DNA of 34,296 nucleotides from Alicyclobacillus contaminans DSM 17975 (GTDB lineage: Bacteria > Bacillota > Bacilli > Alicyclobacillales > Alicyclobacillaceae), in assembly GCF_000429525.1 (NCBI RefSeq), contig NZ_AUCA01000035.1:1-34296 (forward strand), written 5' to 3'. Within the stretch, counting starts at the first letter, position 1, and each line of letters starts with the position of its first letter. The position numbers were made by a program, and so were the translations under genes. Below the pieces are notes generated by a model, which did not search any database, was not told the origin of the DNA, and saw only the letters and a program-made list of their open reading frames with translations. Of the stretch, positions 20,129 to 31,611 are shown in pieces.

Positions 20129-20347
20129 GTGGATTCACAGTGGCGACCGTATCAACCATTTCGCGGACCGTTCGATCCGTGCCCACCACTGCCCAAAGCG
20201 TACATTGTGCCTCCGAACCAATACATCACCTTCCAGCCCGAGGGTCTGCGCCAGTTTTCCCCGCATGAAGCCTTGAAGTACGGTACGTTGTGGCCGGATC
20301 TGTACAGTCCGTACAATCCCCGATACAAGAGGGGGGACGACGCGTGA
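20129..20347 (+). CDS. cotJA: Spore coat-associated protein CotJA
   Basis: A 72-residue protein. GTG 20129 is used because GAGGAGGG lies five bases before it. The CotJA pattern is clear: FDPCPPLPKAYIVPPNQYI, then FQPEGLRQFSPHEALKYGTL and the C-terminal WPDLYSPYNPRYKR. In Bacillus subtilis CotJA with CotJC is made in the mother cell and becomes part of the spore coat. Its stop overlaps the start of cotJB (GTGA). cotJC is not next in line here but lies about 10 kb downstream. Confidence 0.88.
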   Translation: MDSQWRPYQPFRGPFDPCPPLPKAYIVPPNQYITFQPEGLRQFSPHEALKYGTLWPDLYSPYNPRYKRGDDA

Positions 20348-20610
20348 GCCAGGCCACGCTGCCGAAGGAGTACTACAAATATTTGCACGAGCTGCAAACG
20401 GTGGATTTCGTCCTGGTGGAACTGACGCTGTATCTCGATACACATCCGGCCGATCAACAGGCCCTGTCCCAGTTCACACAGTTTCAGCGGCGCAAACGGG
20501 TCCTGATGCAGCAGTTCGAAATGGCGTTTGGCCCGCTGCTCGAGTACGGAAACAGTCCGGTCGGCCAGACCTGGACCTGGTCGTCCGCGCCGTGGCCGTG
20601 GCAGGTGTAG
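20344..20610 (+). CDS. cotJB: Spore coat protein CotJB
   Basis: An 88-residue protein beginning at GTG 20344, overlapping the cotJA stop by four bases. The central helix YLHELQTVDFVLVELTLYLD, followed by a second with QFQRRKRVLMQQFEMAFGPL, matches the CotJB family, and the end is aromatic-rich (WTWSSAPWPWQV). It is needed with CotJA and CotJC for spore coat composition. The usual next gene, cotJC, is displaced by the type IV pilus cluster. Confidence 0.88.
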   Translation: MSQATLPKEYYKYLHELQTVDFVLVELTLYLDTHPADQQALSQFTQFQRRKRVLMQQFEMAFGPLLEYGNSPVGQTWTWSSAPWPWQV

Positions 20611-20982
20611 GGGTGGACGTCGGATGTCAGGGGGGTTCCAGATACACCCATATCGCAGTCCGTCCACAAACAGAATAAAAATGGATATAGATTCTAAATG
20701 ATCTTCTTTTCCCCTTGGATTCCGCGCGTCCGAAGACCGTGCGTCGAACGGTGACGGAGTGATGACAACCACGGTTCCAAGGGCCTTTTTATGGTGGCGA
20801 CGGGAAACCATGCGCGCTATCGAATGTAACAACACGCACCGAAAATAATGATAAATAATCTGTTATGAATCGACAAATCGTGAAGGAATTTGGCGAGCGA
20901 AGCAGTATTCATATAGATGAAAGACCATACAAGAGAGAACGGCGCGGCCAGCGGTGGGGTGCCAGGGTGAGGGGAGAACGGC
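20611..20982. other. Junction region between cotJB and the pilus cluster
   Basis: No gene. It contains the structured element at 20712-20790 and an A/T-rich run at 20835-20865. TTGGCG with TATAGA at 16-base spacing (within about 20889-20920) is a weak candidate for the pil operon promoter. A short stretch before it (about 20625-20645, TCAGGGGGGTTCCAGATAC) is weakly similar to one at 30318-30335 just past the pilus genes. Confidence 0.4.
20712..20790 (+). terminator. Structured RNA / branched terminator between cotJB and pilB
   Basis: CCCTTGGA (20712-20719) pairs perfectly with TCCAAGGG (20776-20783), closing a 56-base domain. Inside, TCCG/CGGA (20721-20724/20755-20758) and ACCGT/ACGGT can pair. 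CC and five T (20786-20790) follow. It may simply terminate cotJAB; the branched interior also resembles a regulatory leader. I do not recognise c-di-GMP or other known riboswitch cores. Confidence 0.5.
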
Positions 20983-22641
20983 ATGACGACGCGGATTCGG
21001 CTGGGAGACCTCCTGTTGAGCATGGGGATGATCACGCAGGAACAGTTGGATCATGCCCTGGAGATTCAACGGGAGACCAAGGGACGTCTGGGCGAAATCC
21101 TCATTCAGGAAGGGTATCTGTCTGAGGAACAGTTCATTGAAGTGCTTGAATTTCAATTGGGCGTACCGCACGTCAACCTGTTCCGATTTCAGATTGACCC
21201 GACCATCGTCGCTCTGATTCCGGAGTCGGTGGCCAGACGCTACCAGGTCTTGGCGCTCAAGAAAGAGCGTAACAAGTTGACCGTTGCGATGGTGGACCCA
21301 CTCGATTACTACGCCATCGACGACATCCGCATGAGCACGGGCTTCAACGTGGAGCCGGTGATTGCCTCCAAGCACGAGATGCAGGTGTACATTGAACGGT
21401 ACTATGGCCTGCCGGGATCGCTTGAAGAATTGAGCACGTTGGTGCCAAAGGAAGAAGCCCTGGGAGAGCATGTGACAGACGAGGACTCTCCGGTGGTTCG
21501 TTTGGTCAACCAAATCGTGCACCAGGGATTGCAGCAGCGGGCCAGCGACATTCATATTGATCCGGGTTTGGAGGAGGTCATCGTCCGTTACCGCGTGGAC
21601 GGCCTGTTGCGAACAGAGCTGACGCTGCCGAAGAGCATGCAGAACATTGTCATCACGCGGATCAAAATCATGGCGAACCTGAACATTGCGGAACGGCGGC
21701 TGCCTCAGGACGGGCGAATGCAGGTGGAGGTGGACTTTCGCCAGGTGGACATTCGCGTGTCCACCATTCCCACCGTGCACGGGGAAAAGTGCGTGATGCG
21801 TCTGCTTGACGCCAAGAATGCGGTGCTGGAACTGGACAAGCTCGGCATGTCCCCGGAGAATCTGCGGGTGTTTCAATCGATGATCCGCTCCGCCCACGGG
21901 ATGGTGCTCATCACGGGGCCCACCGGCAGCGGAAAGACCACCACGCTGTACGCGGCGCTCGGGCACTTGTCCAGTGTGGAACGCAACATTATCACGATTG
22001 AAGATCCGGTGGAATACCAATTGCCGGGCATCAACCAGGTACAGGTGAACCCGGTCATTGGCTTGACGTTTGCTCGCGGTCTGCGCTCCATTCTGCGCCA
22101 GGACCCGGACATCGTCATGGTTGGGGAGATTCGCGATTCGGAAACGGCGGAAATCGCGGTGCGTGGATCTCTGACGGGGCACTTGGTGTTGAGTACGCTG
22201 CACACCAATGACGCGGTCAGCAGTCTGACGCGGCTGATTGACATGGGGATTGAACCGTTCCTTGTGGCGTCGGCGGTGACAGGCATTGTGGCTCAGCGGC
22301 TGGTGCGCCGGGTTTGCGATCAGTGTCGAGCGGTGTACACACCCACACCCTCGGAGGCGGCCTGGCTGGAGGCGCACGGTGTACCGATGACGCAAATGGT
22401 GAAAGGCAGCGGCTGCGGTCACTGCAACAACACGGGTTACCGCGGTCGTCTCGCCATCCACGAAGTGGTGAAACTGGACGATGAGCTGCGCGGCATGGTG
22501 GTGGAAAAGCGGACGGACGCCGAGTATCGGAGCTACGTGCAGAGCCAGGGAATGACCAGTCTCTTGGAAGACGGCATGGCGAAGATTGCGGCGGGGCTGA
22601 CCACCCTGTCCGAGGTGCTTCGCGTGTCGGGCTGGGATTGA
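20983..22641 (+). CDS. pilB: Type IV pilus assembly ATPase PilB (GspE family)
   Basis: A 552-residue cytoplasmic ATPase; GGGGAG precedes ATG 20983. The N-terminal MshEN-like domain (RLGDLLLSMGMITQEQLDHA) is followed by the catalytic domain. That carries the Walker A motif GPTGSGKTTT (residues 312-321), the Asp/Walker B region QDPDIVMVGEIRDSETAEIA and the His box GHLVLSTLHTND. Zinc-binding CDQC and CGHC pairs sit near residues 445 and 480. It powers pilus extension with PilC and PilM-N-O. It is the first gene of a compact cluster that runs to 30304. Confidence 0.95.
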   Translation: MTTRIRLGDLLLSMGMITQEQLDHALEIQRETKGRLGEILIQEGYLSEEQFIEVLEFQLGVPHVNLFRFQIDPTIVALIPESVARRYQVLALKKERNKLTVAMVDPLDYYAIDDIRMSTGFNVEPVIASKHEMQVYIERYYGLPGSLEELSTLVPKEEALGEHVTDEDSPVVRLVNQIVHQGLQQRASDIHIDPGLEEVIVRYRVDGLLRTELTLPKSMQNIVITRIKIMANLNIAERRLPQDGRMQVEVDFRQVDIRVSTIPTVHGEKCVMRLLDAKNAVLELDKLGMSPENLRVFQSMIRSAHGMVLITGPTGSGKTTTLYAALGHLSSVERNIITIEDPVEYQLPGINQVQVNPVIGLTFARGLRSILRQDPDIVMVGEIRDSETAEIAVRGSLTGHLVLSTLHTNDAVSSLTRLIDMGIEPFLVASAVTGIVAQRLVRRVCDQCRAVYTPTPSEAAWLEAHGVPMTQMVKGSGCGHCNNTGYRGRLAIHEVVKLDDELRGMVVEKRTDAEYRSYVQSQGMTSLLEDGMAKIAAGLTTLSEVLRVSGWD

Positions 22642-22651
22642 GGTGATTTGG

Positions 22652-23690
<1,039 letters not shown>

Positions 23691-23698
<8 letters not shown>

Positions 23699-24953
23699 AT
23701 TCTCCTACGTGGCGCTGGACGGATCGGGCAAGCGGCAGCGCGGGCGCATTTCTGCCGAAACGAAGCGGGATGCCGTGCTGCGCCTGCGGGAACAGCGGTT
23801 AACAGCGCTCGAGGTCAACGAGTACCGCAAGCGCGGTTTGCTCGGGTCGCTGCGCGAAGCATCGGGCGACAGCATCTGGTCCATGGAGATTCACTTTGGT
23901 CAGAAGGTGAAATCCGGGGAGTTTGCGATGTTTACCCGACAGATGGCGACGTTGATTCGGGCGGGGGTTCCATTGGCGGACGCGGTGCAGGTATTGGCCG
24001 AACAGTCGGAGAATAAGACCCTGGGTAAGGCGCTTCGTGAAATTGGCTCGGAGATTCTCAACGGCAACCAGTTGTCGGAAGCCATCGTTGGTTACAAGGA
24101 TAAACACATTTTCCAGCCCGTGTTCACGAACATGGTGCGGGCGGGGGAAGCGTCCGGAAATCTGGACGAAGTTCTGGAGCGGCTGGCGGTGTTCTTTGAA
24201 AAGGAGCACTACACCCGTGAAAAGGTGAAGTCAGCCCTGACCTATCCCACCATCGTCAGCGTGCTGGCGGTCTGTGTCACGGTGTTCCTGCTGGTGAAAG
24301 TGGTGCCCACCTTCGTCAGCGTGTTCGCCAGCTTCAACGTCCAGTTGCCGTTGCCGACCCGGATTGTCCTTGGGGTATCTCACTTTTTCGTCCATCAGTG
24401 GTATGTCGTACTGGCCTTGCTGATCGCCGTCGTCGGCGGTTACAAACTGGCGGTTCGCAATCGGACAGGCCGATATTGGCGTGATTACGTACTGTTGAAG
24501 ACGCCAGTGTTCGGACAGTTGGTGCTGAAGTCCAGCGTGGCGCGGATGGGGCGGACATTGAGCAGTCTGCTCAGCAGTGGCGTGCCCATCATCCAGGCTT
24601 TGCGCTTGTCTGCCGAAGTGGTGGAAAACGAAGTGATTCGACGGGCGCTGCAGGATAGCGAGGAAAGTCTGACCACCGGACAAACGCTGTCCGATCCGTA
24701 CGAGCGCAGCAAACTATTTCCGCCGCTCGTGATTCAAATGATCAAGGTGGGCGAGGAGACAGGGAACCTCGACTTCATGCTCACGAAAATTGCAGATTTC
24801 TACGAGACGGAGACCGAGGCCATGGTGGACCGCATGAAGTCCCTGCTGGAACCCCTGTTAATGTTGGTTCTGTCGGTCATTGTCGGAACCATTATCACCG
24901 CCGTGCTGACGCCGATGTTCTCACTGTATTCCCAGGTGGGCAGCTTGGGCTGA
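23691..24953 (+). CDS. pilC: Type IV pilus platform protein PilC (GspF family)
   Basis: A 420-residue membrane protein starting at TTG 23691, inside the end of pilT, with GGAGGTG upstream. Two homologous T2SSF domains are seen, one around residues 75-200 (FTRQMATLIRAGVPLADAV) and one around 280-400 (MGRTLSSLLSSGVPIIQAL). Three or four membrane helices lie between and after them. The protein is the inner-membrane platform on which PilB and PilT act. Length and motifs are normal. Confidence 0.95.
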
Positions 24954-24975
24954 TGTCTCATCCAGTCGGTGATGA

Positions 24976-25007
24976 TTTGCTGGCCAACTTCGGTTCAGAC
25001 CAGCAAA
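24976..25007 (+). promoter_or_regulatory. Stem-loop upstream of the major pilin gene
   Basis: TTTGCTGG (24976-24983) pairs perfectly with CCAGCAAA (25000-25007), with a 16-base loop and no T-run. It lies between pilC and the pilin, where it could set an mRNA 5' end for a separately stabilised pilin transcript. Confidence 0.45.
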
Positions 25008-25047
25008 CTCACATATATGAAATTCTTGAAGGGGAGAGGGTAGTTTC

Positions 25048-25506
25048 ATGAAGGAGAAGTTGTATCGGTTTGTACGAGCCCGCCGCGATGCCGCGGAACA
25101 AGACGCCGGCGTGACATTGATTGAATTGTTGGCGGTCATCGTGATTCTGGCGGTCATCGCCTCGATTGCAGTGCCCGTGGTGCTGAACTCCATCAATAAT
25201 GCGAAGATCAACACTACGAAACAGTCGGAGTCGGTCATTGCCGAAGCACTGAATCGGTATGCGGCAGATCACGATGGAAAATTTCCTACAGGATCAACGA
25301 CAAAAATAGAAGGGACACTAACAAGCAGTACAGACGGCGGTCCCTACCTGCAATCCGTTCCAAACGATGCCTGGGGAAATCCTTTCAAAATTAGCTCCAA
25401 TGGCAGCAACTATGACATTGTCACATCAAGTAAGTCGCCCCACAGGGTTGAATTGACAAACTTGGAATCTGCGCCTACAGTGGATAATCCCACCACGAAT
25501 CCATAA
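25048..25506 (+). CDS. pilA: Type IV prepilin / major pilin (PilA, GspG-like)
   Basis: A 152-residue prepilin. AAGGGGAGAGGG precedes ATG 25048. The 21-residue basic leader ends at Gly21, followed by VTLIELLAVIVILAVIASIA, with Glu26 as the conserved +5 glutamate. Cleavage by a prepilin peptidase is expected, though that peptidase is not in this window. The globular part contains YLQSVPNDAWGNPF, as in GspG-type major pseudopilins and many Gram-positive pilins. It forms the main pilus fibre in the envelope. The C-terminal 60 residues are less GC-rich and Ser/Asn/Thr-rich, as expected for a variable surface pilin. Confidence 0.88.
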   Translation: MKEKLYRFVRARRDAAEQDAGVTLIELLAVIVILAVIASIAVPVVLNSINNAKINTTKQSESVIAEALNRYAADHDGKFPTGSTTKIEGTLTSSTDGGPYLQSVPNDAWGNPFKISSNGSNYDIVTSSKSPHRVELTNLESAPTVDNPTTNP

Positions 25507-25533
25507 ATCAGGCATCCTAGATGTTTTTCCTGC

Positions 25534-25561
25534 GGAGAGACCGTAGCTTGGTCTCTCCTTT
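25534..25561 (+). terminator. Intercistronic terminator after the major pilin gene
   Basis: GGAGAGACC (25534-25542) pairs perfectly with GGTCTCTCC (25550-25558) around a 7-base loop, with only three T following. The weak tail suggests partial termination, leaving less transcript for pilM-N-O. Confidence 0.7.
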
Positions 25562-25591
25562 CACCCGGACAATGTGAGGGGTGAGGAACTG

Positions 25592-26539
25592 ATGTTCGGA
25601 ACAAAAAGAAAAAGAGTTGTCGGTCTCGACGTTGCAAAGCATGGGATTTCGGGTGTGGTCTTGCAGCATGGAACGGAAAAGGTGCGTGTCGCAGATGTGT
25701 TTTCGTTGCCTATGCCCGTTTCTGAGGATGGGACCCCCACACTTAATCCGCACGTGCAGAGAGAGCTGCGACAGGTGGTGGCGGCCCATCGGTTGCGGGG
25801 TAAGCCGGTGGTTTTGTCGGTGCCGAACGACCAGGTCATCGTCCGCTACCTGCAGATGCCGGTGGTACCCGAGACCGCGCTGCGGCAAGCCATTGAGGTG
25901 GAACTGGGCGTCACCATCCACCTGCCGTTCGAAGATCCGGTGTTTGATGTGAAGCGGGTGCCGGGGATTGGCGCGATGGAAGCGGAGGCAGATCAGATGG
26001 GGGTGTGCCTGATTGCTGCGCCGAAAGCGGTGATTGCGGAACGAATTGGACTGGTGAGAGCGGTAGGGCTCAATCCAGTGGCGGTTGACATTCAACCGCT
26101 GGCGTTGATTCGGGTAGGAAATATTAAACCGCGTGATCCATCCGAGTTGATGATTCTGGTTCAATTGGACGACGAAGAGTTGGCGCTCTCCATATTCGTA
26201 GGATCACACCTGTATTTCGTGCGCACTATGGAGATGGGCATTGGCAGAGAAGTGGATGATCCGATGCTGCTGAAATCTGCGGCGGAGGACATTGTTTATG
26301 AGATGAACCGCGTCGTGAACTTTTTCAACTTCAATCTGGGTGAAGTAGAACGACCGGTGGGCGTGGTGTATGTGCATACACTGCATCCCAAGAAACACTT
26401 TATTATTGAACAGCTTAACCAACAATTGTCAACGGAAGTAAACTTGATTGAGTTGGGCGTAGTTGGACAGATGAACGACGTCTCACCGGAGGCTTTCATG
26501 GCACTCGGGCTGTCCATGAGGAGAGGATACGAAGGATGA
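25592..26539 (+). CDS. pilM: Type IV pilus assembly protein PilM
   Basis: A 315-residue actin-like cytoplasmic protein. ATG 25592 follows GGGGTGAGG; an in-frame GTG 25574 is possible. VVGLDVAKHGISGVVL near the start and VPNDQVIVRYLQMPVVPETAL (residues about 76-96) fit PilM, which binds the N-terminus of PilN and links PilB to PilN-O. Its length is slightly short compared with proteobacterial PilM (about 350). Its end overlaps the start of pilN by four bases. Confidence 0.85.
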   Translation: MFGTKRKRVVGLDVAKHGISGVVLQHGTEKVRVADVFSLPMPVSEDGTPTLNPHVQRELRQVVAAHRLRGKPVVLSVPNDQVIVRYLQMPVVPETALRQAIEVELGVTIHLPFEDPVFDVKRVPGIGAMEAEADQMGVCLIAAPKAVIAERIGLVRAVGLNPVAVDIQPLALIRVGNIKPRDPSELMILVQLDDEELALSIFVGSHLYFVRTMEMGIGREVDDPMLLKSAAEDIVYEMNRVVNFFNFNLGEVERPVGVVYVHTLHPKKHFIIEQLNQQLSTEVNLIELGVVGQMNDVSPEAFMALGLSMRRGYEG

Positions 26540-27072
26540 ATTCAGCCTTCATGGAAGTAAATTTACTGCCTAAGGAGACGGTGCAAGAACGGTACTCTTT
26601 CGGTCTGAGAGCAGTTGGGGTGGGGTTGCTGTCCATTGCTATTCTCACATTTTGTATCACTGCCTGGCTGCAGCATAGCAGTGATGTGCGTGAACGACAG
26701 TTGCTGTCACAGGCCCAGTCAGATGTGGCAGCAGTGCAGCAGAAGCTGAACGCGGTTCACAGTGCAGAGGGCGGGCAGTCACCGGCTCCTGCGACAGAAC
26801 CTGCTGCGCAACAGACCTTGGTGCAACCGCTCGTACAGGCCGTCTCCAAGGTGCTGCCTTCCGGCGCGTCACTGACCACGGTACAGTGGTCAGGAACAGC
26901 GCTGACTCTTTCGGGAAGTTGCAAGAGCGTCGATGCCCTGGCCGACTATGAAGATGCGTTGGCACGGGTGCCGAATGTCAGTCAGGTTTTGGTCCAGAAT
27001 GTATCCTCGGGTGCGAATGGAGATTTTACATTTAGCATCAATGCCACCATGACGGGGAGCGGTGCGGCATGA
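26536..27072 (+). CDS. pilN: Type IV pilus assembly protein PilN
   Basis: A 178-residue bitopic membrane protein. The N-terminal MEVNLLPKE is the short PilN motif that binds PilM, and one hydrophobic segment (about residues 24-44) follows. A coiled-coil stretch (about residues 50-75) and a Pro/Ala linker (SPAPATEPAAQQ) lead to a small C-terminal fold. It pairs with PilO to form the alignment ring. It overlaps pilM at its start and pilO at its end (ATGA). Confidence 0.82.
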   Translation: MNSAFMEVNLLPKETVQERYSFGLRAVGVGLLSIAILTFCITAWLQHSSDVRERQLLSQAQSDVAAVQQKLNAVHSAEGGQSPAPATEPAAQQTLVQPLVQAVSKVLPSGASLTTVQWSGTALTLSGSCKSVDALADYEDALARVPNVSQVLVQNVSSGANGDFTFSINATMTGSGAA

Positions 27073-27614
27073 GCAGAGCAAAGTCACAATGGGTCCTCGT
27101 CTTGCTGGCTCTGTTAACCATCGTTTCGGCTGTGTGGTTTTTCGTTGAATACCGGAACTACTCAGTCCATCGCCGGAATTTTGACACTGTGCAGAGTCAG
27201 CTGTTGCTTTTGCAGGAACAACTGGCGAGAGCACAAGCCAAACCCAAGAACACGACGACTGCTCCTGCAACAGCTCAAGTCACGCCGAAAGGCGCCAATG
27301 AATCCAGTCTGATGCGCGAGATTGGGAATGCCGTCGCCAAATCCGGTGCCAAATTGCAGACAGTGACGTTTTCCTCATCAACAACGGGGAATAGCAACCC
27401 AACTTCCGGCGGCACGGGGCAGGTGTCCGCCCCTGCTGGGACACAGCCGCTGTATGCAGACATCCAGGCGACTGGAAGTACGGCCCAATTGCTTGAGTTT
27501 GTGAATTTGATTCAGACGAGCGATCGACTGTCCGTCTTGCGCAGCTTTACCATGAATGCAGGACAGAATGGACAGACGCTCGAGGTACAGTTCAATTTTC
27601 CATACCTCTCTTGA
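27069..27614 (+). CDS. pilO: Type IV pilus assembly protein PilO-like
   Basis: A 181-residue protein with one N-terminal membrane helix (WVLVLLALLTIVSAVWFFVE), a coiled coil (about residues 35-58), a Thr/Pro/Ala linker and an alpha/beta domain. The C-terminal PLYADIQATGSTAQLLEFVN is consistent with PilO ferredoxin-like folds. Sequence similarity in this family is low, so the call rests on topology and on its place after pilN (4-base overlap). It probably dimerises with PilN and contacts pilins in transit. Confidence 0.72.
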   Translation: MSRAKSQWVLVLLALLTIVSAVWFFVEYRNYSVHRRNFDTVQSQLLLLQEQLARAQAKPKNTTTAPATAQVTPKGANESSLMREIGNAVAKSGAKLQTVTFSSSTTGNSNPTSGGTGQVSAPAGTQPLYADIQATGSTAQLLEFVNLIQTSDRLSVLRSFTMNAGQNGQTLEVQFNFPYLS

Positions 27615-27625
27615 GGATGATTCAG

Positions 27626-28048
27626 ATGAAACGCCTTCATGCCACTCGGCCAGATGGTATGACCTTGATTGAAGTGCTGGCGTCTGTGGTGATACTCAGT
27701 ATGTTTTTGACAGGCATGCTAATGCTTTTGAACGCCATGTTCGTTACCTCAAAGCTGAACGCGCAGCAGCAGGATGCGACCACTTTGGCACAGAACATGA
27801 TGGCGCGCATGGAGTCGGAAGGCGCGGCTGCGTTCCTGTCTGACTATCAACAACAGTACGGACAGACGCCCGAGGTGGAGACACTCCACGGGGTCCACTA
27901 TATGGTCGTACCCCATCAAATACAGCCAACCCCGAGTTGGGCGGCAAGCAGTGCAGTCTATGTGGAGGTGGACGTGTCATGGTCGACGATTCAAGGCGGG
28001 AAAACCATCACCAAACAAATTGCCTTGAAGCGATTGTTCGATCAATGA
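27626..28048 (+). CDS. Type IV minor pilin (PilV-like prepilin)
   Basis: A 140-residue prepilin. ATG 27626 follows GAGGATGA; TTG 27611 and ATG 27617 are alternatives. The leader ends at Gly11 with mature MTLIEVLASVVILSMFLTG and Glu16 at +5. The globular domain is small (VEVDVSWSTIQGGKTITKQI at its end), like PilV/GspI minor pilins. It lies after pilO and overlaps the next prepilin gene by four bases. It probably belongs to the priming complex at the pilus tip. Confidence 0.82.
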   Translation: MKRLHATRPDGMTLIEVLASVVILSMFLTGMLMLLNAMFVTSKLNAQQQDATTLAQNMMARMESEGAAAFLSDYQQQYGQTPEVETLHGVHYMVVPHQIQPTPSWAASSAVYVEVDVSWSTIQGGKTITKQIALKRLFDQ

Positions 28049-28605
28049 CAAGTCTTTCCCAAGCGGAGGAAGGACTGACCTTAATAGAACTGTTGGCTGC
28101 ACTCGTGATTGGATCAGTGGTGTCCACTCTGCTGGTTTTCGTGATTTCTTATGAATTCAGATCATGGCAGTCGATTGAATCCCAGAGTAACTTACGCAGC
28201 AATGTCATATTTACGTCCAATGCCATACAGCAGATATTTCAGAATCTGGTTACATTCGGGCCGGACGAAAATGCGCCGGATGGCGCTTCTTGGATGGGAC
28301 TGGATGCAAATGGAAATACTGTGAAAATCCAATTAAAAACAACTGGAACCACGGGGCCGTCGAATGGGAACGTTCCAATCATAGGCATTGCAATCACGGA
28401 TACATCATCCCCTACCGGAGACGGACCGCCGCTCGTGCCGAGCACGGTTTATACCTTCAACGATACATCGTTTGCCGGGACAAATTTTGAGTTGAATGAT
28501 GTCGACAACGTCATTGAGCTGAACCTGCAGGCTACTTACTATGGGACCGAATCGCCGGTGGTATATCAAACCACGGAGGACTTTACCCTTGGGGGAGGGG
28601 ATTAA
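28045..28605 (+). CDS. Type IV minor pilin (PilW/GspJ-like prepilin)
   Basis: A 186-residue prepilin whose ATG 28045 overlaps the preceding stop, so translation is probably coupled; no separate ribosome binding site is obvious. The leader MTSLSQAEEG is cut after Gly10, giving LTLIELLAALVIGSVVSTLL with Glu15 at +5. The globular part (about residues 45-186) has beta-rich segments and ends VVYQTTEDFTLGGGD. Size and position fit PilW or GspJ. It likely acts with the flanking minor pilins. Confidence 0.8.
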   Translation: MTSLSQAEEGLTLIELLAALVIGSVVSTLLVFVISYEFRSWQSIESQSNLRSNVIFTSNAIQQIFQNLVTFGPDENAPDGASWMGLDANGNTVKIQLKTTGTTGPSNGNVPIIGIAITDTSSPTGDGPPLVPSTVYTFNDTSFAGTNFELNDVDNVIELNLQATYYGTESPVVYQTTEDFTLGGGD

Positions 28606-28606
28606 A

Positions 28607-30304
28607 TTGAAGGAGAAAGACAAGGGCTCCACGCTGCTCACCGTGCTCGCGGCCGTGCTGATTTTGAGTACCATGATGACCGCATTGGTGGCCACGTCTG
28701 CGCAGGACATGGCCAACAGCGCGAAATTCATGGATGCCACGACTGCTCTGGACAATGCGCGCTCCGGCATGCAGGCATTGTACCAGAAGACGGGCGAAGA
28801 ATGGGAAAAAATGGGCGGCGAAACAATCACGGATGTGGCAACGGCGATTGCCGACTTACAACAGCTGCCTGAGGCTGTGTCGGCGGACTTCCCCAATTCT
28901 GACTCAAGCCGACCGTTCACGCTGGTGAAGTTTAATCTGGCGGATGACGATTTTCAACAAGTCCAGGCGAATGATTCGTCTGCCACCACCATCTGGGCCA
29001 CGTATGACGTCGTGGTGAGCAGCACAGTGAATCAGGTCACTCGAACGTTGTCGGACACGTTCACAATTTCCGGATCATTTACGTCGGGGAGTTCCAGTCC
29101 TGGAGGGGGTGGAGACAACGGCGGAGACAATTCAGGTAACGGGCCCAGTATGACGGTGTACGCAGACGACCACCTGTACGTGCTTGGAAATCCAAAGATT
29201 TCTCAAGGACAGATAGAAGCAGGAGCTGTGGACTTTCGTATTACGCCATGGTCGTACTTCTTGGGGCTCTCCAGCAACCAGACGTTTCTTCCCGACTTTA
29301 CCGGCTCCACGCTATCGGCGGCCAAGGGTTATTACTCCTTTAGTGGATTTAACGGAGATGATTGGCTTACATCGTGTCTGAACAAATCAGATGACAGTAG
29401 CCCGACCCAAATTAACGCTTCTTCCCCGCCCCCGTCCATTGCGGTTTCTCAACTGCCACAGTACGAGCATGGGGCACAGTTGGTTCCTTACCAATCGTAT
29501 TCTCAGTGGCAAACGGACATAAAGCAACTGTCTACAACTCTCAAAAATGTGTCATCTTCGTTTGCAAATAACCCACCTGCGTTTGGCATAGACCTATGGT
29601 CAGGCATCTTGTCTCCTTGGTTTGGCGGTGACTCGAAATATGTGGCTCAAGGGGACTTGAATAGCAATCATACGTACTTGGTCATCCAATCTGCCACCGT
29701 GAACAATCAGACTCACGTACCAGGGAATTTAGTGGTCTCAGGATTCTTGTTCGGCCAAACTAATCTAAACATGTCCAGCAGTATGCTGGTGGATGGCTCC
29801 CTGTTTATACCACATCTCGGCACAATGACAGTCAGTCAACCCTTGTTTGTAAAGGGGGATCTATATGTTCTTGGCGGGACACTTACAGGTACGGCTCCAA
29901 TTTACGTTGGTGGTCACGTAGTGATTGTCAATACGCCGGGAACCACCAGCCAATTGGATCTCCGTAGTGCTGGGCCCATTATTGTCATCGGGGTACCAAC
30001 GGCCACCATCAATGGACGCTTGGTCAGCGGTGACTACGTGTATTTAGAGGGAAGTCCAGGGTCTCACGGTGAGACGTACACCGTTCACGGACAAGTGGAA
30101 GGAGAAAATGTGATACTCACCAGTATACCTGATTTGTGGGGGAATCCCGGGATTATAATCAATGGTAACAATGCTGGGAACAACAGCGGATCCGGGTCCG
30201 ATAGCGGAGGCAAAGGGAGTGGCGGCGGTGGAGCCACCACGCCAGCGGTGAGTGGTTTGATGCTGGCTCCGATGCCACAACCGACCACTTCGGTTGGTAG
30301 TTAA
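28607..30304 (+). CDS. Large PilX/GspK-like tip protein with predicted beta-helical head
   Basis: A 565-residue protein. TTG 28607 is taken as start because GGGGGAGGGG lies six bases before it. Residues 1-7 (MKEKDKG) form a short leader; STLLTVLAAVLILSTMMTAL follows, with Thr12 at the +5 position where pilins have Glu, as in GspK/PilX tip proteins. A Gly/Asn/Ser/Pro linker (about residues 160-180) leads to a large extracellular part. Its second half repeats short beta strands of the kind seen in right-handed beta-helices (VPGNLVVSGFLFGQTNL; VKGDLYVLGGTLTGTAPIYV; VGGHVVIV). A second Gly/Ser linker (GSGSDSGGKGSGGGG) precedes the C-terminus. Possibly a pilus-tip adhesin; that function is inferred from architecture and position only. 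Confidence 0.7.
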   Translation: MKEKDKGSTLLTVLAAVLILSTMMTALVATSAQDMANSAKFMDATTALDNARSGMQALYQKTGEEWEKMGGETITDVATAIADLQQLPEAVSADFPNSDSSRPFTLVKFNLADDDFQQVQANDSSATTIWATYDVVVSSTVNQVTRTLSDTFTISGSFTSGSSSPGGGGDNGGDNSGNGPSMTVYADDHLYVLGNPKISQGQIEAGAVDFRITPWSYFLGLSSNQTFLPDFTGSTLSAAKGYYSFSGFNGDDWLTSCLNKSDDSSPTQINASSPPPSIAVSQLPQYEHGAQLVPYQSYSQWQTDIKQLSTTLKNVSSSFANNPPAFGIDLWSGILSPWFGGDSKYVAQGDLNSNHTYLVIQSATVNNQTHVPGNLVVSGFLFGQTNLNMSSSMLVDGSLFIPHLGTMTVSQPLFVKGDLYVLGGTLTGTAPIYVGGHVVIVNTPGTTSQLDLRSAGPIIVIGVPTATINGRLVSGDYVYLEGSPGSHGETYTVHGQVEGENVILTSIPDLWGNPGIIINGNNAGNNSGSGSDSGGKGSGGGGATTPAVSGLMLAPMPQPTTSVGS

Positions 30305-30347
30305 CGTGGATGGTGTTCAAGGGATCCCAGATACGTACAATCCATTT

Positions 30348-30403
30348 TCGCATATCCATCCCTGACGACCACAACGGCGGGGGTGGATGTTTGTGTGAAT
30401 TTA
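30348..30403 (+). repeat. Direct repeat copy 1: degenerate cotJC leader and start
   Basis: These 56 bases match 30997-31052 at all but two positions. Read in the cotJC frame the copy gives GTG TGA ATT TAC GAA TAG, the start of CotJC with Trp changed to a stop. Weaker similarity extends roughly ten bases on each side. It is a fragment of a duplicated, decayed cotJC. Confidence 0.85.
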
Positions 30404-30408
30404 CGAAT

Positions 30409-30439
30409 AGAACCTCGGATGGAATAACCGAGGTTCTTT
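30409..30439 (+). terminator. Stem-loop after pilus cluster, possible terminator
   Basis: AGAACCTCGG (30409-30418) and CCGAGGTTCT (30428-30437) form a perfect ten-pair stem with a 9-base loop, followed by only three T. It could end the pilus transcript, or that of the convergent phzF fragment. Confidence 0.55.
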
Positions 30440-30483
30440 GGAGATGACCTCATGTCAGTTTCTATTCTCAGCATGATAAGTGG

Positions 30484-30975
30484 TCAATCCAGCTGAAGTT
30501 GGCCAGTCCCTGTGATCACTGCCGTACCGCCCACGCGGATTTCAGGTGAATCTCCAGGAATGGTATCCACGAAGACCATTCCCGGACGTCCCATGGAATC
30601 TCCCTGCGCGATGCGTAACGAATGTCTTTGTTCGGAATTCAGTATTCCTTCCAGAACGAGATACCCAGCCAGCGCGCCATTTGCCGCGCCGGTAACCGGA
30701 TCCTCCGGGATGCCCACTGCAGGGCCAAAGTCACGGGTGTAAATATCGTATGGATCTCCTTCTTCGGAGAATGTAAACAGATGTGTAGTCGCTGACTGTT
30801 GCTTCGCATTCATCTCGGCTAATTCGGTGAGATGAGGTTGCGCAGCATCGATGGCGGCGCGGGAAGCCACGGGGACGAGTAAGTGCCAGTTTCCCGTATA
30901 ACCAAGTCGAATGGGATAGTTCGATGCGATGTCGGAAACGTTCATCCCGAAAATACGGGCGATTTCCTCGGCTCA
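30484..30975 (-). pseudogene. PhzF-family isomerase-like gene, N-terminal half missing
   Basis: The readable frame gives the C-terminal half of a PhzF-type protein: FGMNVSDIASNYPIRLGYTG, then TRDFGPAVGIPEDPVTGAANGALAGYL, and a beta-rich end with GRPGMVFV. PhzF proteins are isomerases acting on aromatic or keto acids; the full family length is near 290-300 residues. Upstream of AEEIARIFG the frame is closed by TGA, so roughly 130 N-terminal residues are missing and no start signal is visible. The fragment lies between the two cotJC-leader repeats, with its broken end close to copy 2. Confidence 0.75.
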
Positions 30976-30996
30976 CCGAATACAGACAACTCGTGC

Positions 30997-31052
30997 TCGC
31001 ATATCCATCCCTGAGGACCACAACGGCGGGGGTGGATGTTTGTGTGGATTTA
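30997..31052 (+). repeat. Direct repeat copy 2: functional cotJC leader and start
   Basis: The intact partner of 30348-30403, carrying the GGGGGTGG ribosome binding site and the GTG start of cotJC. The two differences from copy 1 are C/G in GACGAC versus GAGGAC, and A/G in the codon after GTG (TGA versus TGG). Confidence 0.85.
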
Positions 31053-31611
31053 TGAAAAAAAGCTGCAGTATCCGGTCCGCGTCAGCAAATGTGATCCAAG
31101 GCTGGCCAAGTTTCTCATTGAACAATATGGCGGTGCCGACGGGGAACTGGCGGCGGCCCTGCGCTATCTCAATCAGCGATACTCAATCCCGGATAAAGTC
31201 ATTGGGCTGTTGACCGACATCGGGACGGAAGAGTTCGCCCACCTCGAAATGATTGCCACCATGGTCTACAAATTGACCAAGGACGCCACACCGGAACAGT
31301 TGAAGGCGGCGGGGCTTGGTGAGCATTTCGCCGATCACGACCATGCGCTGGCGTATCACAATGCGGCGGGCGTTCCGTGGACCGCAACATACATCCAGGC
31401 GAAGGGCGATCCCATTGCGGATTTGTACGAGGATATCGCCGCGGAGGAAAAGGCGCGCGCCACCTATCAATGGCTGATAGACATCACGGATGATGTGGAT
31501 ATTCAAGACGCACTCAAGTTTCTGCGGGAGCGGGAGATTGTGCATTCGCTGCGCTTTCGCGAAGCGGTGGAGATTCTCAAGGAGCACCAGGAGAAGAAGA
31601 CCGTATTCTGA
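31042..31611 (+). CDS. cotJC: Spore coat protein CotJC, manganese-catalase family
   Basis: A 189-residue protein, the usual CotJC length. GTG 31042 is chosen since GGGGGTGG ends six bases before it and the N-terminus WIYEKKLQYPVRVSKCDP then fits the family; ATG 31036 overlaps the binding site. The ferritin-like dimanganese motifs are present: GTEEFAHLEMIATMVY (residues about 64-79) and a second EExxR/H region, YEDIAAEEKARATYQWL. CotJC is a coat protein thought to protect the spore from peroxide. It is separated from cotJA-cotJB by the pilus cluster, so it must have its own promoter or read-through from upstream; no sigma-E promoter could be identified by eye. Confidence 0.93.
   Translation: MWIYEKKLQYPVRVSKCDPRLAKFLIEQYGGADGELAAALRYLNQRYSIPDKVIGLLTDIGTEEFAHLEMIATMVYKLTKDATPEQLKAAGLGEHFADHDHALAYHNAAGVPWTATYIQAKGDPIADLYEDIAAEEKARATYQWLIDITDDVDIQDALKFLREREIVHSLRFREAVEILKEHQEKKTVF

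Follow-up and report, generated by a model that had tools for sequence, protein, structure and literature searches.

A truncated cotJC start in Alicyclobacillus contaminans as a probable relic of a serine-recombinase element

The window analysed here, the whole 34,296-nucleotide stretch of contig NZ_AUCA01000035.1 from Alicyclobacillus contaminans DSM 17975 (positions 1 to 34,296, forward strand), contains the leader of the coat gene cotJC twice, once in front of the intact gene (copy 2) and once in front of a cotJC start that is cut after a few codons at a joint with other DNA (copy 1). This two-part junction is most plausibly, with an estimated probability of about 0.7, the attL scar of an integrative serine-recombinase element whose attachment site was the beginning of cotJC, the adjoining phzF fragment being leftover cargo and cotJC having been restored. 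The same left junction is present inside cotJC, with a recombinase gene adjacent, in two other genomes, namely G019 (apparently Alicyclobacillus kakegawensis NBRC 103104) and G061, and in G019 both ends of the element are found with dyad arms. The feature in the window is a dead, inert relic, which is read as a remnant and is not filed as a sporulation-gene-intervening element; its value lies in the elements to which it points.

The repeated cotJC leader and the phzF fragment

Comparison of positions 30348-30403 with 30997-31052 confirmed the 56-bp direct repeat with two differences described in an earlier note, as 54 of the 56 positions are identical, with mismatches at positions 19 (C/G) and 51 (A/G) and a longest common exact word of 31 nt. 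A repeat search extended the pair to 30331-30415 and 30980-31064 at 85% identity over 85 nt. A dispersed repeat, the finding that would have told against the earlier interpretation, is ruled out, as good matches within the genome of A. contaminans (G000) are limited to these two places, the next having an E value of 1.87. Copy 1 (30331-30404, plus strand) consists of an ATA-N17-CATATCCAT motif, by its consensus a sigma-E-like promoter, followed by a leader and a truncated cotJC start that reads ATG TTT GTG TGA ATT TAC; it was recognised as the host half of the scar by its similarity to copy 2, to the leaders of relatives and to G028, a genome of another genus, whose leader is 93% identical over 89 nt, carries an identical promoter spacer and precedes a single complete cotJC. 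The same motif is frequently common to the upstream regions of solo cotJC genes. The TGA that had been placed directly after the start of copy 1 is indeed present, yet it follows the start immediately only when this is taken to be GTG, the cotJC start codon in most of the 11 relatives compared. An internal TGA was also seen in additional, truncated cotJC-like copies in two further genomes (G035:C236:10577-11062 and G036:C1:697466-697951).

The cotJC sequence of copy 1 is cut at TTTAC-GA (ATTTAC-GA) and is followed by ATAGAACCTCGGAT, the sequence beyond the cut continuing as ATAGAACCTCGGATGGAATAACC. The GA at 30405-30406 (plus strand) is the proposed crossover dinucleotide, by analogy with G019, where the element's dyad arms are centred on GA, and the adjoining ATAGAACCTCGGATGGAATAACCG (30407-30430, plus strand) would represent the element half of the scar, an attP-like arm identical to that of G019 at 19 of 24 positions. 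Overlapping this arm is a hairpin, AGAACCTCGG-9 nt-CCGAGGTTCT (30409-30437, not assigned to a strand), which has fold z-scores of -3.9 on one strand and -5.9 on the other and may be the terminator of phzF. The insert between the repeat copies carries, on the minus strand (30484-30976), the C-terminal half of a PhzF-type gene, as the earlier note had proposed, covering positions 143-279 of 281 of the Pfam profile PF02567 (E 2.5e-27). At DNA level window positions 30394-30976 are 91% identical to the corresponding part of a whole phzF copy in the congeneric sister genome G001, both genomes having the DNA that runs from the joint across phzF. Extension of the phzF reading to 30996 found no support (p ~0.22, as compared to p ~0.005 for the promoter spacer). 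The missing 5′ half, which the earlier note had suggested seeking elsewhere in the genome, was not found in the A. contaminans assembly, a draft of 111 contigs rated 99.99% complete, where a G001 query that included upstream DNA returned only the edge of the fragment itself at E < 0.4. The other PhzF of this genome (contig C57) was rejected as the missing half, being only 33% identical to the G001 protein. A C-terminal part of a DDE transposase (PF13358) lies at the contig end (33968-34282).

In G001 the phzF gene stands beside a divergent gene that is LysR-like by look, on a contig other than that of the cotJABC operon. This pair is 97% identical over 2 kb between G001 and G011, which belong to different genera (L256 8092-10129 and L257 5902-7933), and therefore seems to be mobile between genera, the likeness being a sign of recent transfer; the shared stretch stops just beyond the phzF stop codon.

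The 17-mer CGAATAGAACCTCGGAT, which spans the joint, occurs exactly in 3 of 61 genomes, at one place each in G000, G001 and G019, its neighbours being a full phzF in G001 and the interior of cotJC in G019. With up to two mismatches it was found in 11 of the 61 genomes (13 places) as compared to 8 of 61 for a reversed-pattern control, and for this reason only the exact matches were used. A second scan, which covered 59 genomes and allowed up to three mismatches, matched at 14 places, each in a different genome (3 genomes for the reversed control); of the 11 places beyond G000, G001 and G019 one, in G061, follows cotJB and the cotJC start, and the remaining ten, read by eye, have no preceding cotJC start. 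L283, the only one of these ten also compared with cotJ and recombinase proteins, gave no match to them. The arms of G001 and G061 each agree with that of G019 at 22 of 24 positions. Comparison of the G019 insert with the phzF contig of G001 over 13.7 kb gave a match at the att site only (89% over 36 bases, E 1.2e-6), and in G001 the junction copy lies away from any cotJC gene; only some 14 bases there resemble the cotJC start, and no remnant of cotJC or of a recombinase was detected near the arm in the 13.7 kb compared.

Recombinase elements within cotJC and beside other spore-type genes

In G019 the 17-mer comes after cotJB and the opening codons of cotJC, where it marks the left end of a 24-kb insert, the remainder of cotJC being located 24 kb further on. 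Between the upstream stop codon and residue 5 this 3′ part is devoid of an in-frame ATG, GTG or TTG, and its ORF, with an internal start, comprises 176 aa. A large serine recombinase with Resolvase, Recombinase and zinc-ribbon domains is encoded at the left end of the insert, resembles the SPbeta integrase over its whole length (PDB 9dxh, E 1.7e-55) and is 30% identical to an annotated SprA. At its two ends the insert has 24-nt arms which are inverted with respect to each other and agree at 21 of 24 positions about a central GA, and the dyad score of 36 compares with a maximum of 27 in 2000 shuffles. The cotJABC of G025, the genome placed beside G019 in both trees, is unbroken. The left junction recurs after cotJB in G061, whose recombinase shares 78-79% identity with the G019 enzyme and whose contig stops inside the element, so that it covers the left junction only. 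Type I restriction-modification genes are located within the G019 insert (L199 1813-8343) and, by eye, seem to be present in that of G061 (L284-L285) also. Viral contigs yielded no copy of the cotJC element, by protein or by att arm, and the recombinases in phage and plasmid records were all less than 60% identical.

Relatives of the G019-type recombinase were detected in 31 of the 61 genomes (E up to 1e-40), and the flanks were read at seven places in five genomes. At six of the seven, where the recombinase is 46-51% identical to that of G019, it directly adjoins a truncated gene of spore type, two of these six being in A. contaminans. The truncated gene is yhbH (DUF444) in G000, G008, G010 and G016 (recombinases at L262 on G000:C7 at ~94.2 kb, L266/L286, L265 and L267, respectively), a YheC/D-like gene in G000 (L263, G000:C3, 290-1816) and a LysM-GH18 gene resembling yaaH/sleL in G032 (L264, recombinase 50-51% identical). 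All three are presumably sporulation genes; Pfam confirmed one example of each, the other yhbH cases having been assigned by eye. The seventh place, on contig C7 of G000, has a more distant recombinase (31-33%) beside a thioredoxin-reductase-like gene that appears whole by eye. In G008 the second half of yhbH was located 8.2 kb away behind an inverted arm, and judged on its DNA this genome is assigned a complete yhbH-splitting element. The opposite ends of the yhbH insert of G016 and of the GH18 insert of G032 were not found within 60 kb each.

Taken further, cotJC would be a recurrent target of serine-recombinase elements of the Alicyclobacillaceae, which would be excised in the mother cell so as to rebuild the gene, with a wider set of elements, several per genome, splitting yhbH, yheC/D and the LysM-GH18 spore gene as well, and with the lineage of the window having escaped once it had reacquired an intact cotJC, attL and the cargo staying in place. 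We regard the odds on this broader proposal as even.

Origin of the intact cotJC and rival explanations

Copy 2 (30980-31035, plus strand) provides the promoter and leader of the intact cotJC (31036-31611, plus strand; manganese catalase family, PF05067), the only cotJC match in the genome. By repeat search and spacer comparison copy 2 appears to possess a complete promoter distinct from that of copy 1, as the two 17-nt spacers match at only 10 positions (p ~0.005); the copy 2 spacer agrees with those of other solo cotJC genes at up to 11 of 17 positions and is unlike phzF. The cotJC DNA of A. contaminans is nearest to that of G028 (86.0%, as compared to 78.5% for G001), whereas for its cotJA and cotJB, and for the DUF212 gene next to them, the nearest of the genomes compared is G001. 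The separate promoter and these differing affinities favour a replacement in which incoming DNA supplied the intact cotJC over local duplication, with support that is modest, given a cotJC tree whose forks (84/94 and 83/97) are weakly supported and whose bootstrap had not settled. Copy 2 was probably regained later.

The earlier note had also suggested that the repeat may be the scar of the event that split the cotJ genes, and this was not borne out. In the window cotJA (20129-20347) and cotJB (20344-20610), both on the plus strand, lie 10.4 kb upstream of cotJC. Among 41 genomes searched, 38 have CotJB, which adjoins cotJC in 17 and is separated from it by 0.9-26 kb on one contig in 16, a further 2 having reversed order and 3 having the genes on different contigs; G028, outside the 38, is split also (2.8 kb), and a split cotJC often has an apparent solo promoter. 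In both the 17-mer and the second scans the scar junction occurred in just two of the 16 split genomes, G000 and G019, and therefore the split is a common arrangement and no product of the scar. For a deletion between the repeats the earlier note had predicted sister strains with one cotJC copy and no phzF; the sister genome G001 has a single cotJC in an unbroken cotJABC operon with no phzF beside it. The genes between cotJB and copy 1 may be type IV pilus genes; Pfam gave no match for the one analysed (28541-30304). These pilus-like genes were rejected as a usual cotJB-cotJC insert: among 20 fetched cotJB-cotJC stretches the 17 window genes compared found no match except for the DUF212 gene upstream of cotJA (10 of 20), and thus the inserts, represented in the window by 20610-30330, differ. 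A common origin of the DNA that follows cotJB and the region before copy 1 was likewise set aside as weak, with p 0.002 in one shuffle test in which the shuffled maximum exceeded the score.

Under the favoured attL reading, a large serine recombinase such as that of G019 would have joined the element arm to cotJC at GA, within codon 5 counted from GTG. Adjoining this left end, the element would have borne phzF, probably together with the LysR-like gene beside it. Later losses would have taken the opposite end and the remainder of the element as well as the 5′ half of phzF, most simply through a recombination that set an intact cotJC and its own promoter, supplied by a tandem copy or by incoming DNA, immediately after the phzF stub. 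The window itself shows the cotJC start cut at the joint and an intact cotJC following it. Several observations tell against this account: no recombinase is among the ORFs listed for the last 10 kb of the window, and no attR lies beside the scar, where only the one arm was found, the opposite arm being absent from the window within three mismatches; that one arm is the least alike of those compared; the G001 junction copy is not at a cotJC gene; the G019 insert gave no phzF match; and the recombinase matches of A. contaminans itself, on contigs C3 and C7, include ones only 46-48% identical to that of G019 and located beside genes other than cotJC.

A rival explanation is a microhomology joining in which the 3′ flank of phzF already bore a stray att-like TGTGGATTTGCGAATAG, as in G001, that begins with bases similar to the cotJC start. 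Replication template switching or end joining would have fused this flank to the cotJC leader and a switch back would have followed, so that a templated insertion came to lie within a direct repeat, with no recombinase acting at the locus. The G001 flank TGTGGATTTGCGAA is similar to the cotJC start TGTGGATTTACGAA and lies away from a cotJC gene, and an inverted foreign piece between direct repeats fits two template switches. This explanation is nevertheless unlikely, as the break point is the exact entry site of the recombinase element in the cotJC of G019, G061 has the same left junction, and spacers differing at 7 of 17 positions are unexpected from a single copying event. The differing spacers also weigh against a tandem duplication of leader and cotJC followed by entry of phzF DNA into the first of these copies and a single deletion, no site-specific element being involved; the two leaders, alike at all but two bases, would suit such a history, but it leaves unexplained why the joint matches the element end of G019 and G061, and we consider it highly improbable. 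The duplication followed by insertion or deletion put forward in the earlier note survives in so far as an insertion at a duplicated cotJC start and a subsequent deletion are supported, and a simple tandem duplication on the spot need not be assumed, the two spacers being unlike and that of copy 1 being identical to that of G028. A false joining of unrelated contig pieces at the repeat, conceivable in a draft of so many contigs, has the slightest chance of all, since the longest shared exact word is too short to make a short-read misassembly likely and the joint recurs as a junction in other genomes.

Comparison with known sporulation-gene elements

The rejoining of genes in the mother cell is a rare form of programmed DNA rearrangement in bacteria. 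If cotJC elements are indeed excised during sporulation, a coat gene joins the known targets, and together with the yhbH, yheC/D and GH18 cases this would suggest that the family carries many such elements, several per genome, with the window showing how a host may lose the element and yet keep the gene. The elements used for comparison were skin (sigK), SPbeta (spsM), vfbin (spoVFB), vrin (spoVR), gin (gerE), phi3T (kamA) and yin (yabG), and published sources name the interrupted genes as sigK, spsM, spoVFB, spoVR, gerE, kamA and yabG (PMC4191935, PMC5595907, PMC6957869, PMC10747680). In the openly available literature searched, no published account of an element splitting cotJC came to light. 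The nearest case with respect to the gene is the Clostridioides difficile phage phi027, a prophage beside a CotJC-like gene (PMC11222575, PMC12122855), which differs from the G019 insert in being described as upstream of the gene and not inside it. With respect to the host it is the Alicyclobacillus phage MMB025, a prophage of sigK in A. acidoterrestris, which is like G019 in belonging to the same bacterial family, in having a SpoIVCA-type integrase beside the joint and in its inverted repeats, and is unlike it in targeting sigK and in being an infectious phage, cotJC being absent from the text of its report (PMC13141910). As compared to the skin and SPbeta kind, the G019 insert is distinguished by its target, cotJC, and by an excision that is putative, and the window by retaining a single decayed half-site; the G019 insert is of that same kind in three features, namely its location inside a sporulation gene, the adjacent, terminal large serine recombinase and the inverted arms around a short core.
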